Source of the DNA: Amylibacter sp. SFDW26
GTDB taxonomy: Bacteria > Pseudomonadota > Alphaproteobacteria > Rhodobacterales > Rhodobacteraceae
Reading direction: 5' to 3'
Assembly: GCF_009184395.1 (NCBI RefSeq)
Contig: NZ_WEIC01000001.1
Location: forward strand, 186,001 to 250,000
DNA: 64,000 nt
Shown here in pieces: positions 7,008 to 10,213 of the stretch (positions within the stretch are counted from its first letter, which is position 1; the number at the start of each line of letters is the position of its first letter). Below the pieces are notes generated by a model. The model ran no database searches. It saw nothing but the letters and a program-made list of their open reading frames with translations, and was not told where the DNA came from. The translations under genes and the position numbers were made by a program.

Positions 7008-8552
7008 ATGGTCAGACGTAGCAGGGCAGGTGGACGTGCAGGGAATACACGGCGCACAGATGCAAAAGCGATTGAGCAAATGCCATGGCGTCAGGTCGTT
7101 AACATCGACAATCCCACAGAGCCGCTGCGCCCTGAAGGGGTGGAAGCCATTCACAATGGAGCGATGCGGATTTTAGAGGAAATCGGTATTGATTTCCTGA
7201 ACCCCGAAGCTTTGGAATTGTTACGCGAAGCGGGTTGTACGATTACGGGTGAAAACGTTCGTATGGATCGCGCTTGGGTCATGGACATGATCAAGCATTG
7301 CCCGACAGAGTTTACGATCACGCCGCGCAACCCCGAGCGTGAGATCAAAATCGGTGGTCGCAATATGGTGTTTGGCAATGTGTCCTCACCACCAAGTGCG
7401 ATGTGTTTGGATAAGGGTCGGCGCACAGGGACGATGGAAGATTATGATAACTTCATCAGGCTGACGCAGTATTTTAATTGCATCCATTTCGCAGGTGGCT
7501 ATCCGGTGGAACCGATGGATATACACCCCTCCATTCGTCATTTGGATTGCTTATATTCGAAGCTGACAATGACGGATAAAGTGTGTCACGCTTATTCTTT
7601 AGGTAAGGAACGCGTAGAAGATGTGATGGAAATGGTGCGTATTGCAGGCGGACTTACGCATGAAGAATTCGATGCGACACCGCGAATGTATACAAACATT
7701 AATTCTACTTCACCGCTTAAACACGATCATCCAATGCTGGACGGTGCTATGCGCTGTGCGCGGCGCGGGCAACCTGTGATCGTAACACCGTTTACGTTGG
7801 CAGGGGCAATGGCGCCCGTAACAATGCCAGGTGCCGTGGCGCAGTTTGTTGCCGAAGGGTTGGCGGCGATTGCATTGTTGCAATATATCAATCCAGGTAC
7901 GCCATGTGTGATCGGATCATTCACATCTAATGTGGATATGAAATCAGGTGCGCCTGCATTTGGGACACCAGAATATATGCGCGCCACGCAAATGTCGGGC
8001 CAGATGGCGCGGTTTTATGGATTGCCGCTTAGAGCATCCAATGCTTGTGCATCTAACACGCCCGATGCGCAGGGGATGATGGAAAGTGCAAACTCTGTTT
8101 GGGCGGCGGTGCAATCGAATGTGAATGTGGTGTATCATGCGGCGGGCTGGCTGGAAGGCGGCTTGATCGCATCGTTTGAGAAGTTCGTGATTGATTGCGA
8201 ATTATTGCAGCAAGTTCAAAGGTATATGGAACCCATCCTGACCTCGACCGATAGGGAAGATATAGCGGTACAGGCGATCAAAGACGTTGGCTCTACTGGT
8301 CATTTCTTTGGCATTGACCATACGCAAGAACGGTATGAAACAGCGTTTTATTCGCCGTTTTTATCGGATTGGAGTAATTACGAACAATGGGAATTGAATG
8401 GGTCTGTTATGACCGTTGAGCGGGCCAATAAGATCTGGAAAGATATCATCAAAGAATTTGAAGAACCGCCAATGGATGCAGCGATCAAAGAAGAATTGGG
8501 TGCCTTTGTTGCGAAGCGTAAAGATGAGGGTGGTGCGCCCACTGATTTCTAA
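7008..8552 (+). CDS. MttB-like (non-pyrrolysine) trimethylamine methyltransferase family protein
   Basis: This 514-residue protein belongs to the COG5598 trimethylamine methyltransferase family: ILEEIGIDFLNPEALELL at the N terminus, then the glycine-rich barrel with FGNVSSPPSA and the C-terminal GSTGHFFGIDHT/YETAFYSPFLSDW block. The reading frame is open without an in-frame TAG, so it is a non-pyrrolysine member. Characterised non-Pyl members move methyl groups from quaternary amines such as glycine betaine to a corrinoid protein. No corrinoid protein or reductive activase is nearby, so substrate and partner are unknown. The start is at a GGGAG ribosome site after an AT-rich 105-bp leader. 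Confidence 0.87.
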   Translation: MVRRSRAGGRAGNTRRTDAKAIEQMPWRQVVNIDNPTEPLRPEGVEAIHNGAMRILEEIGIDFLNPEALELLREAGCTITGENVRMDRAWVMDMIKHCPTEFTITPRNPEREIKIGGRNMVFGNVSSPPSAMCLDKGRRTGTMEDYDNFIRLTQYFNCIHFAGGYPVEPMDIHPSIRHLDCLYSKLTMTDKVCHAYSLGKERVEDVMEMVRIAGGLTHEEFDATPRMYTNINSTSPLKHDHPMLDGAMRCARRGQPVIVTPFTLAGAMAPVTMPGAVAQFVAEGLAAIALLQYINPGTPCVIGSFTSNVDMKSGAPAFGTPEYMRATQMSGQMARFYGLPLRASNACASNTPDAQGMMESANSVWAAVQSNVNVVYHAAGWLEGGLIASFEKFVIDCELLQQVQRYMEPILTSTDREDIAVQAIKDVGSTGHFFGIDHTQERYETAFYSPFLSDWSNYEQWELNGSVMTVERANKIWKDIIKEFEEPPMDAAIKEELGAFVAKRKDEGGAPTDF

Positions 8553-8587: not shown

Positions 8588-8593
8588 AGGAGG
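8588..8593 (+). promoter_or_regulatory. Ribosome binding site deciding the GTG start of the H-NOX gene
   Basis: A perfect AGGAGG lies 7 nt before the GTG at 8601. An upstream in-frame GTG at 8577 has no ribosome site. Starting at 8601 gives MHGMINRGLQ, the typical H-NOX N terminus, so 8601 is the supported start. Confidence 0.85.
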
Positions 8594-8600
8594 ATTGCTT

Positions 8601-9191
8601 GTGCATGGAATGATCAATCGAGGTTTGCAATGTTATATTCGAGATATTCATGGGGTTGATGTGTGGGAGGAAACATGTGAACAGGCAAAGCTGTCGTTTT
8701 ATAACTTTGAGACGATGTTGACCTATGATGATGCAACAACCGAAGATTTGTTGAAAAGTTTCAGTACGTTGATTAATCGGTCACGTGAAGAAATCCTTGA
8801 GGATTTTGGAACATATGTGGTGTCCGAAGAAACGCTGAGTGCCGTGCGGCGTTTGTTGAAACTTGGTGGCAATAACTATGTCGATTTTCTGCAATCGCTG
8901 AACTTTGTTTATGACCGTGCGAAAATGGCGGTGCCTGATTTGGATATACCGACCATGGAGTTGATCGCCAATGCGCCAAATCAATTTACGTTGCATACGC
9001 GTTTTCAGAAGCGTGGGTACGGTGCCGCATTATTGGGTTTATTACGGGCTTTGGCAGATGATTATGGGGCATTGGTTTCTATCGAACATTGCCATAAATC
9101 TCAGAAATTTGCGGATGAGGATTGTTTTAATATCACAATATTACGCGAAGATTGGTCTTCGGAGAAATACCTAGAGTTGGTGAAACACTAA
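8601..9191 (+). CDS. H-NOX (heme NO-binding, HNOB) domain protein lacking the canonical heme ligand
   Basis: This 196-residue single-domain protein starts MHGMINRGLQCYIRD and follows the H-NOX pattern throughout. Aligning FLQSLNFVYDRAKMAVPDL without gaps to the soluble guanylate cyclase segment FLQNLDALHDHL..., the proximal heme His (His105 in beta-1) falls on Tyr104 (codon 8910-8912). The YxSxR heme-propionate motif falls on T133-R-F135-Q-K137, so all three key residues differ. The gene overlaps the next start by one base (TAATG) and the partner is an HNOBA-GGDEF cyclase, as in roseobacter NO-signalling pairs. It may bind heme by Tyr, bind something else, or act without heme. Family membership is clear; ligand state is inference. 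Confidence 0.88.
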   Translation: MHGMINRGLQCYIRDIHGVDVWEETCEQAKLSFYNFETMLTYDDATTEDLLKSFSTLINRSREEILEDFGTYVVSEETLSAVRRLLKLGGNNYVDFLQSLNFVYDRAKMAVPDLDIPTMELIANAPNQFTLHTRFQKRGYGAALLGLLRALADDYGALVSIEHCHKSQKFADEDCFNITILREDWSSEKYLELVKH

Positions 9192-10213
9192 TGGGTGCGG
9201 CGTTACCCTTTCCAACCCACGATTTGAATAATGGGATATCCGACACCAACACATTGAATGTGTTATTACCTATGCATGTACAGCTGGATGGAGAGGGGGG
9301 CATTACGCATGTAGGCCCCACTTTTGCGAAACTGTTTCCTGAAAACACTGATTTTATAGGACAAAACCTGTTTCAATATATCCGCGTTTTATATCCGCGC
9401 GATATCCAAGAACATTCTGATTTAAATACACATTTTTCCCAACCTCTTACAGCACAATTAAAAGTCATAGACCCGATTGAATTAAAAGCTGTGGTGGTGC
9501 CTGTGGCTGGGCAAACGGGGGTGTTAATAAATTTCGCATTTGGAACATCGTTAAAACAGGCGGTTTCTAAATGGCACTTGAACAGTACTGATTTTTCACC
9601 TGCGGACCCTTCCGTTGAAATGCTGTATGTGATCGAGGTGCAATCGGCGCTATTAGAGGAATCTAAAAGTTTAAACAGACGGTTGAATGGTCAATGGGAA
9701 GAAGCCGAGGAAAAAGCGTACTCTGATCCTTTAACTGGGCTGTCCAACAGACGCGCATTGAAACGGTATATGCACCGAATGCGGCGTAGGAGAAATGACA
9801 CTGGGTTTGCTTTGTTTCTGATTGATTTGGATCACTTTAAAAACGTGAATGATACCTTGGGGCATGATGCTGGCGATAAGGTATTACAACAGGTTGCTGA
9901 GATACTGTTAAATGAAACACGCCCGAACGATATTGTTGTGCGTACGGGCGGTGATGAATTTGTTTTGGTGATTGAAGATGCACATGATATGGAAGTTTTG
10001 TCCACGATCGCTGCGCGGATCATATCCAAGGTTGAGCGGCCTATATTCTTAGATAAAAAACGTTGCAATGTCGGTGCGAGTATTGGCATTATTCAAAGCA
10101 CTACATCAATTAATCATTCTATCGATACGATCCTAAAACAAGCGGATGACGCACTGTATCAATCCAAACGGGATGGGCGTGGGTGTTATGTGTTTGGAAG
10201 AATGAGTAACTGA
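9191..10213 (+). CDS. Diguanylate cyclase with N-terminal HNOBA-type sensor domain
   Basis: This 340-residue protein has an N-terminal domain (about residues 20-150) that opens with LLPMHVQLDGEGGITHVGPT, the signature of the HNOB-associated PAS-like domain of guanylate cyclases. A linker helix leads to a GGDEF domain (about 180-340). The active site GGDEF is intact at residues 253-257, and an RxxD inhibitory site (RPND, 244-247) lies exactly five residues before it, so the enzyme should make c-di-GMP and be product-inhibited. The start overlaps the H-NOX stop (TAATG at 9189-9193), implying coupled translation and a stoichiometric complex. An upstream in-frame start at 9152 lies within the H-NOX gene and is unlikely. 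Confidence 0.9.
   Translation: MGAALPFPTHDLNNGISDTNTLNVLLPMHVQLDGEGGITHVGPTFAKLFPENTDFIGQNLFQYIRVLYPRDIQEHSDLNTHFSQPLTAQLKVIDPIELKAVVVPVAGQTGVLINFAFGTSLKQAVSKWHLNSTDFSPADPSVEMLYVIEVQSALLEESKSLNRRLNGQWEEAEEKAYSDPLTGLSNRRALKRYMHRMRRRRNDTGFALFLIDLDHFKNVNDTLGHDAGDKVLQQVAEILLNETRPNDIVVRTGGDEFVLVIEDAHDMEVLSTIAARIISKVERPIFLDKKRCNVGASIGIIQSTTSINHSIDTILKQADDALYQSKRDGRGCYVFGRMSN

Follow-up and report, generated by a model that had tools for sequence, protein, structure and literature searches.

In D. shibae, the NO-bound H-NOX protein inhibits the neighbouring Dgc1, according to passages of PMC8846402 (citing Bedrunka 2018) and of PMC7232146. Inhibition of the adjacent dgc1 also appears in a portion of PMC6473078, and the protein is listed as a heme NO sensor in a part of PMC8846402. 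In canonical H-NOX proteins, NO binding displaces the proximal His, with hinge glycines and a heme-contact proline as parts of the mechanism, as set out in sections of PMC7108781. The same sections give this His as absolutely conserved in 598 sequences, which had been chosen by similarity to the V. cholerae H-NOX, and describe how, after oxidation, the heme-free V. cholerae protein inhibits its partner kinase. In the bacteria considered here, links have been drawn from c-di-GMP enzymes to gene transfer and motility (passages of PMC6473078 and PMC7232146).

The proximal His is treated as a defining H-NOX feature; here, we describe a widespread family, under selection, most of whose examined members are without it. 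Among the open-licence PMC articles listed by literature searches, none has a title or displayed abstract on H-NOX proteins of Rhodobacterales lacking the proximal His, though a mention in Bedrunka 2018 or Rao 2015 might have escaped this search; the H-NOX terms tried were absent from PMC9756655.

The gene pair studied lies in the window, i.e. the whole stretch of 64,000 nt that was analysed (Amylibacter sp. SFDW26, contig NZ_WEIC01000001.1, positions 186,001-250,000, forward strand). Like the D. shibae H-NOX/Dgc1 pair, it combines in one operon an HNOB (H-NOX-fold) gene and a GGDEF cyclase gene, the N-terminus of the cyclase being HNOBA in D. shibae and weakly HNOBA-like in the window; both HNOB proteins belong to the same family clade. 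The two differ at the ligand position and in the YxSxR motif: the D. shibae protein keeps His104 and the Arg of YxSxR, whereas the window protein reads Tyr104 and TxFxK. The D. shibae locus comes from a genome of that species (G035), two stretches of which are identical to plasmids NC_009955.1 and NC_009956.1, and also to plasmids of other D. shibae strains, an identity that settles the species but not the strain. As this genome carries a single HNOB gene (L133), which lies inside the family clade and encodes His104 and CxWxR, we take that gene to be Dshi_2815. Two consequences follow: loss of YxSxR alone is no proof of heme loss, since the D. shibae heme sensor itself reads CxWxR, and the family scaffold can carry an NO system when His is present, since the D. 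shibae H-NOX (His104) is reported to do so.

Canonical bacterial H-NOX proteins (Nostoc Alr2278, those of Shewanella and Vibrio, and L001 from the window's own genome) share with the window protein the HNOB fold, the presumed hinge glycines and the proximal proline. Unlike them, the window protein has neither the proximal His nor YxSxR, and it is paired with a cyclase, whereas L001 has a kinase beside it. This canonical gene (G000:C6:212931-213410), with His and YxSxR, adjoins a hybrid histidine kinase gene. As far as the relevant sections of PMC7108781 describe it, the heme-free, Cys-oxidised V. cholerae H-NOX offers a likeness to the mode proposed below, which would likewise act on a partner without heme. 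However, the V. cholerae protein keeps its proximal His and a three-Cys zinc site, whereas in the window family the His is gone from most members examined and only column 133 holds Cys in more than half of them.

The HNOB and cyclase genes of the window

The window protein belongs to the HNOB/H-NOX fold. Its match to the PF07700 (HNOB) profile reaches 91.8 bits against a cut-off of 25.5 and covers the whole profile. In a phmmer search of solved structures, residues 2-179 match the H-NOX of Nostoc Alr2278 with an E-value of 2.1e-16 (guanylate cyclase beta-1 matched too; the alignments inspected were those to the Alr2278 entries). The top Foldseek match of a moderate structural model (mean pLDDT 71, pTM 0.56) is again a Nostoc H-NOX, 4iae (E 2.2e-12). 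The coordinates of the gene pair and of its main residues are collected in table 1.

Table 1. Features of the HNOB-cyclase gene pair, in positions of the window.
Feature	Position	Strand	Basis or remark
AGGAGG ribosome-binding site of the HNOB gene	8588..8593	+	read from the sequence; 7 nt before GTG 8601
HNOB (H-NOX-fold) protein, 196 aa, GTG start	8601..9191	+	PF07700 match and Foldseek
His2, family signature residue	8604..8606	+	186/202 members
Gly70 (202/202), presumed first hinge glycine	8808..8810	+	aligns with a Nostoc Gly; equivalence presumed
Tyr104 (TAT), proximal heme-ligand position	8910..8912	+	sequence and alignment to Nostoc H-NOX and relatives
Pro117 (201/202, one gap), presumed proximal proline	8949..8951	+	aligns with a Nostoc Pro
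T133-x-F135-x-K137 replacing YxSxR	8997..9011	+	sequence and alignment to Nostoc H-NOX and relatives
Gly146 (201/202, one gap), presumed second hinge glycine	9036..9038	+	aligns with a Nostoc Gly; equivalence presumed
Diguanylate cyclase of 340 aa; its start overlaps the HNOB stop codon (TAATG)	9191..10213	+	sequence and GGDEF profile
HNOBA-like (H-NOXA/PAS) N-terminal stretch of the cyclase	9245..9409	+	weak here, clear in some orthologues
GGDEF domain (GGDEF motif 9947-9961, RxxD I-site 9920-9931)	9716..10183	+	145.7 bits; motifs read from the sequence

The GTG start and the ribosome-binding site ahead of it had been proposed in an earlier, sequence-only reading of this DNA. Among the first 149 family members compared, Met occupies residue 1 in 93%, His occupies residue 2 in 97% and Gly occupies residue 3 in 99%, a conservation that supports this start. 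The same reading had described a TAATG coupling of the two genes, and the HNOB stop codon (TAA, 9189-9191) does share a base with the ATG of the cyclase at 9191. It had also credited the cyclase with intact GGDEF and RxxD motifs, both of which are in place; they are invariant in 40 aligned partners of relatives as well, a set to which the window cyclase does not belong.

The catalytic domain of this enzyme is GGDEF and not a class III guanylate cyclase. On its N-terminal part, the HNOBA profile scores 11.8 bits, under the cut-off of 23.4, compared with 31.4 bits, over the cut-off, for the D. shibae cyclase; 37 of the 40 partners match HNOBA at E-values up to 10, the best being 2.4e-8. The partner of L224, a relative with His and YxSxR, scores 23.5 against the same 23.4 and carries an EAL domain in addition, and the frame that follows L225, L226 and L227 resembles, by eye, HNOBA plus a histidine kinase.

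Pairing with the cyclase is nearly universal among the family members examined. A GGDEF homologue stands downstream on the same strand at 144/149 loci of a first set and at 53/53 loci of a second one. As for the other five, L114 (549 residues) and L117 (540 residues), both from the window's genus and both with His104, are single-chain HNOB-cyclase fusions in one frame, their HNOBA part being recognized by eye; L102 and L178 have overlapping cyclase frames on the same strand, and L130 lies at a contig edge. In all, 201 of the 202 members could be assigned a GGDEF partner, and the remaining one runs off its contig. Among canonical proteins, one locus in 35 has such a partner within flanks of approximately 1.5 kb.

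Because the N-terminus of the orthologous partners is HNOBA-like, the module resembles a guanylate cyclase with c-di-GMP output. Indeed, the order of its parts (H-NOX, HNOBA-like, cyclase) is that of soluble guanylate cyclase beta1/alpha1, and it occurs on one chain in L114 and L117. The window module differs from soluble guanylate cyclase in that its output is a GGDEF domain making c-di-GMP, in being usually split between two proteins and in being bacterial. The alpha1 H-NOX of soluble guanylate cyclase is an example of a heme-free domain.

Ligand position and YxSxR motif

In the phmmer alignment, Y104 faces the proximal His of Alr2278 with no gap close by, and T133, F135 and K137 face the Y, S and R of its YxSxR motif. 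The His-bearing members of the family, as well as an outgroup with His and YxSxR (L224-L229, L007 and L010), share column 104 with the window, and the canonical HVEV group has a one-residue insertion immediately before the ligand column. A misalignment of helix F was considered and is ruled out, the window/Nostoc block around position 104 being ungapped and the family and the His/YxSxR outgroup sharing their columns. Of the residues that mark a heme-binding, NO- or O2-sensing H-NOX, the proximal His (here Tyr104) and YxSxR (here TxFxK) are absent from the window protein; the presumed hinge glycines G70 and G146 and the presumed proximal proline P117, which align with Nostoc residues, are present. 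The sequence-only reading had put Tyr104 at the position of the proximal His and had read the motif as T133-x-F135-x-K137. Both assignments agree with Alr2278. In the alignment with characterized H-NOX proteins and roseobacter homologues, which that reading had suggested as a check, the placement of Tyr104 holds and the ligand His is missing from most members.

The window protein could still be an ordinary NO sensor, relying on another axial His or giving a conventional ferrous-NO response despite Tyr104, as the orthologous D. shibae pair is an NO system in the account given in a part of PMC8846402. However, the D. shibae protein keeps His104 (L133), whereas the sequence of the window protein has no His beside position 104, and we hold this explanation to be very improbable.

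In all, 394 genomes from the same GTDB family (393 genera) were searched for HNOB. A match was found in 296/394 of them, and the window protein itself matches 288/394 at E-values up to 0.001, some of these matches being HNOB genes from outside the protein family described here. The matches fall into two score bands: canonical proteins with high scores, and a more numerous set that resembles the window protein (window-type). The sample compared is non-random, weighted to high-scoring hits, 40 lower-ranked regions having later been added deliberately. Its first set holds 35 canonical proteins and 149 members of window type, plus three further proteins that bear His and YxSxR; the second holds 53 further window-type members, 13 from a search of the order and the 40 lower-ranked regions.

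Among the 202 distinct Rhodobacteraceae members, window included, the ligand position is occupied by Pro in 117, His in 32, Gln in 11, Arg in 11 and Tyr in 9, the rest being Ser (6), Ala (6), Asn (3), Glu (2), Thr (2), Lys (1), Gly (1) and a gap (1). The four commonest replacements (Pro, Gln, Arg and Tyr) are each one base away from a His codon; Ser and Ala are not. All three YxSxR residues occur together in 0/202 members, a zero that, for the first 149, partly reflects how the rows were chosen: three that have both Y and S were left out, and in the tree these fall outside the clade. Taken singly, the Tyr of the motif is kept in 12 of the 202 members, the Ser in 42 and the Arg in 9. The canonical group (35 rows), which was delimited by an LYP/IYP motif and not by His, has His in 35/35 and, within YxSxR, Tyr in 35/35 and Ser in 34/35, the Arg lying in a shifted column and being left uncounted. 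The Tyr104 gene belongs to a family whose examined members have, for the most part, lost the heme ligand. The sequence-only reading, which had seen one unusual gene with Tyr, was right on the residue, but the loss of the ligand is family-wide and Tyr is its outcome in only 9 of 202. With His absent from most members examined, NO sensing cannot be annotated in these bacteria from the domain match of an H-NOX beside a cyclase alone.

Column 133, where the Tyr of YxSxR would stand, holds Cys in 103/202 members, and Cys133 and Pro104 occur together in 56 rows of the first 149; a redox role for this Cys would be a guess.

Beyond the GTDB family, a class-wide draw of 385 genomes gave 12 matches to the family alignment, five of them in the window's family. 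The other seven genomes all carry His and a YxSxR-like motif, with scores of at most 119.4 bits, which fits an ancestral heme sensor. In an order-level draw, 163/196 genomes matched, and all the rows listed belong to the same family, the listing leaving out 13 rows without a match.

All nine Tyr members among the 202 fall in the window's own GTDB genus, where 23 of 33 genomes have an HNOB gene and where the position is Tyr in 9, His in 9, Gln in 2, Asn in 2 and Ser in 1 of the 23 window-type members. Tyr133, as YxFxK, is retained in eight His members of the genus; it is also found in three Tyr members, with Thr or Ala in the other six. This pattern looks like a stepwise conversion, with modest support for the subclades (SH-aLRT of 60 and 69 near the Tyr subclade, 99 for the seven-row clade of the window and 0 for its six Tyr rows). 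Tyr104 is shared by the window protein and by five close relatives. Of these six genes, five had the codon read, as TAT four times and as TAC once, and the retention spans near-saturated synonymous divergence.

Such retention, together with the place of Tyr104 on helix F at the ligand position in both alignment and model, would suit a Tyr that coordinates ferric heme in a retained pocket, the protein then sensing heme, redox state or another ligand and not NO at a ferrous His-heme. Moreover, the family scaffold holds heme without YxSxR in D. shibae, judging from a passage of PMC8846402. However, Pro holds this position in 117/202 members against Tyr in 9, the one genus also shows His, Gln, Asn and Ser there, and YxSxR has been lost with no compensating residue identified. 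A Tyr-ligated heme is thus unlikely, and the altered ligand preference that the sequence-only reading had offered as one of its two explanations is disfavoured, with some possibility for this clade.

Constraint, ancestry and selection

A tree was built from 164 rows (149 members, 12 canonical proteins and the three others, L006, L007 and L010), with the ligand and YxSxR columns removed. The 149 family members form one clade, apart from the canonical rows and from L006, L007 and L010, and D. shibae L133 lies inside it. Column 104 requires 33 changes across these members, which ranks it at the 47th percentile among 182 columns (median 34.5), and W22, G70, G90, P117 and G146 require none. The presumed moving parts are therefore frozen and the heme ligand is not, as column 104 changes at an average rate and the hinge and proline columns do not change. 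From the alignment, G70, G146 and P117 are presumed to be the hinge glycines and the heme-contact proline named in the sections of PMC7108781 cited above.

With the tree rooted on the canonical group, parsimony reconstructs His as the root state, together with a single large switch to Pro (126 rows) and seven changes from Pro to His; when coded as His versus not-His, the tree requires 15 changes. Parsimony cannot separate returns to His from repeated losses, and it leaves the deepest family node ambiguous at column 104 (His, Pro, Ser or Tyr).

The HNOB gene is under purifying selection. Its pN/pS is 0.137 between the window and the closest relative (L003) and ranges from 0.137 to 0.401 across the 15 pairs tested; synonymous divergence being near or at saturation, only the low non-synonymous share was used. 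A pseudogene is ruled out by the open reading frame and the low pN/pS. The related idea of a decaying NO sensor with no present function could appeal to the loss of both the heme ligand and the propionate-binding motif, but is scarcely credible given this pN/pS, the intact frame, the near-invariant residues, the intact GGDEF and RxxD of the partner and the wide presence reported above. The sequence-only reading had favoured repurposing over decay, a view supported by the same pN/pS and wide presence, by the invariant presumed hinge and by the kept partner gene.

Elsewhere in the family, L136 (G271:C24:241161-241622) has an in-frame TAA within its HNOB match and two HNOB fragments at the locus, and is possibly a broken copy.

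A paralogue freed by a second H-NOX was also considered, as a canonical copy is present in the window's own genome. Redundancy is yet unlikely as the cause of a family-wide loss, because a match above 100 bits exists in only 44/394 genomes, and in at least one of these (G290) the match is a window-type member. This 100-bit band is no clean divider: in the window's genus, certain window-type members score above it too.

The only near-invariant His of the family is His2 (186/202 members), a position at which 33/35 canonical relatives have Lys, and several acidic and aromatic residues are near-invariant too. These residues might make up a refitted site for a metal, a small molecule or heme bound by its other face, and binding there would drive the hinge. 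We judge this to be quite unlikely, as the residues are not brought together in any structure, the model of the window protein is weak near the N-terminus and the near-invariant residues could equally be the interface with the cyclase.

Proposed control of the cyclase

The residue that holds the heme has been lost while the pairing with the cyclase persists, hence the pair probably senses something else. Our preferred explanation, which we consider probable, is a c-di-GMP module of two genes that descends from an H-NOX/diguanylate-cyclase pair sensing NO, and in which the HNOB protein sets cyclase activity without heme. The HNOB protein would bind the N-terminal part of its cyclase (HNOBA-like stretch and linker), and the two-lobe hinge that survives would serve as both scaffold and switch; we infer both this contact and the absence of heme from which a heme-independent control would follow. 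Tyr104 would then be a tolerated residue of helix F and not a metal ligand. Of the two explanations given by the sequence-only reading, a heme-free sensor whose partner is still regulated is probably the one that fits best.

By analogy with canonical proteins, the want of an Fe-His bond would leave the resting pose relaxed and similar to the NO-bound one. As the NO-bound pose is inhibitory in D. shibae, the window HNOB protein might be a constitutive brake, or else a brake gated by some input that is not NO at heme, such as partner contacts, another ligand of the pocket or redox. Both the inhibitory resting pose and the sign of the effect are predictions from other systems. Two points run counter to the heme-free explanation: K137 could partly replace the Arg of YxSxR, and with the kept Tyr104 some function of the pocket may survive; moreover, the 32 members of 202 that still have His, together with the returns to His that parsimony permits, would sit less easily with it.

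In its broadest form, the proposal would be of a Rhodobacteraceae-wide module, resembling soluble guanylate cyclase but freed from heme, in which H-NOX acts as a general conformational input to c-di-GMP and responds to a novel signal; we see the chances of this wider claim as evenly balanced.

The family has likely been repurposed, and its interest lies in the residue that defines H-NOX having been lost family-wide while the coupling to the partner is preserved. The partner enzyme and the presumed moving parts have been kept though that residue was lost in most examined members. Heme-free control of a cyclase by H-NOX becomes testable, the related His, Tyr and Pro versions being ready controls, and if the proposal is true, the His, Tyr, Gln, Asn and Ser members of one genus would form a natural series of the conversion.

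As regards the surroundings of the pair, a gene for an MttB-type trimethylamine methyltransferase (PF06253, 732.6 bits) at 7008-8552, on the forward strand, lies upstream of the HNOB gene, with 48 bases between the two. Of the 135 family loci that exceed 5 kb, 70 have an MttB homologue upstream on the same strand and seven have one elsewhere or in a different orientation. This neighbourhood may reflect a functional link or an old gene order.
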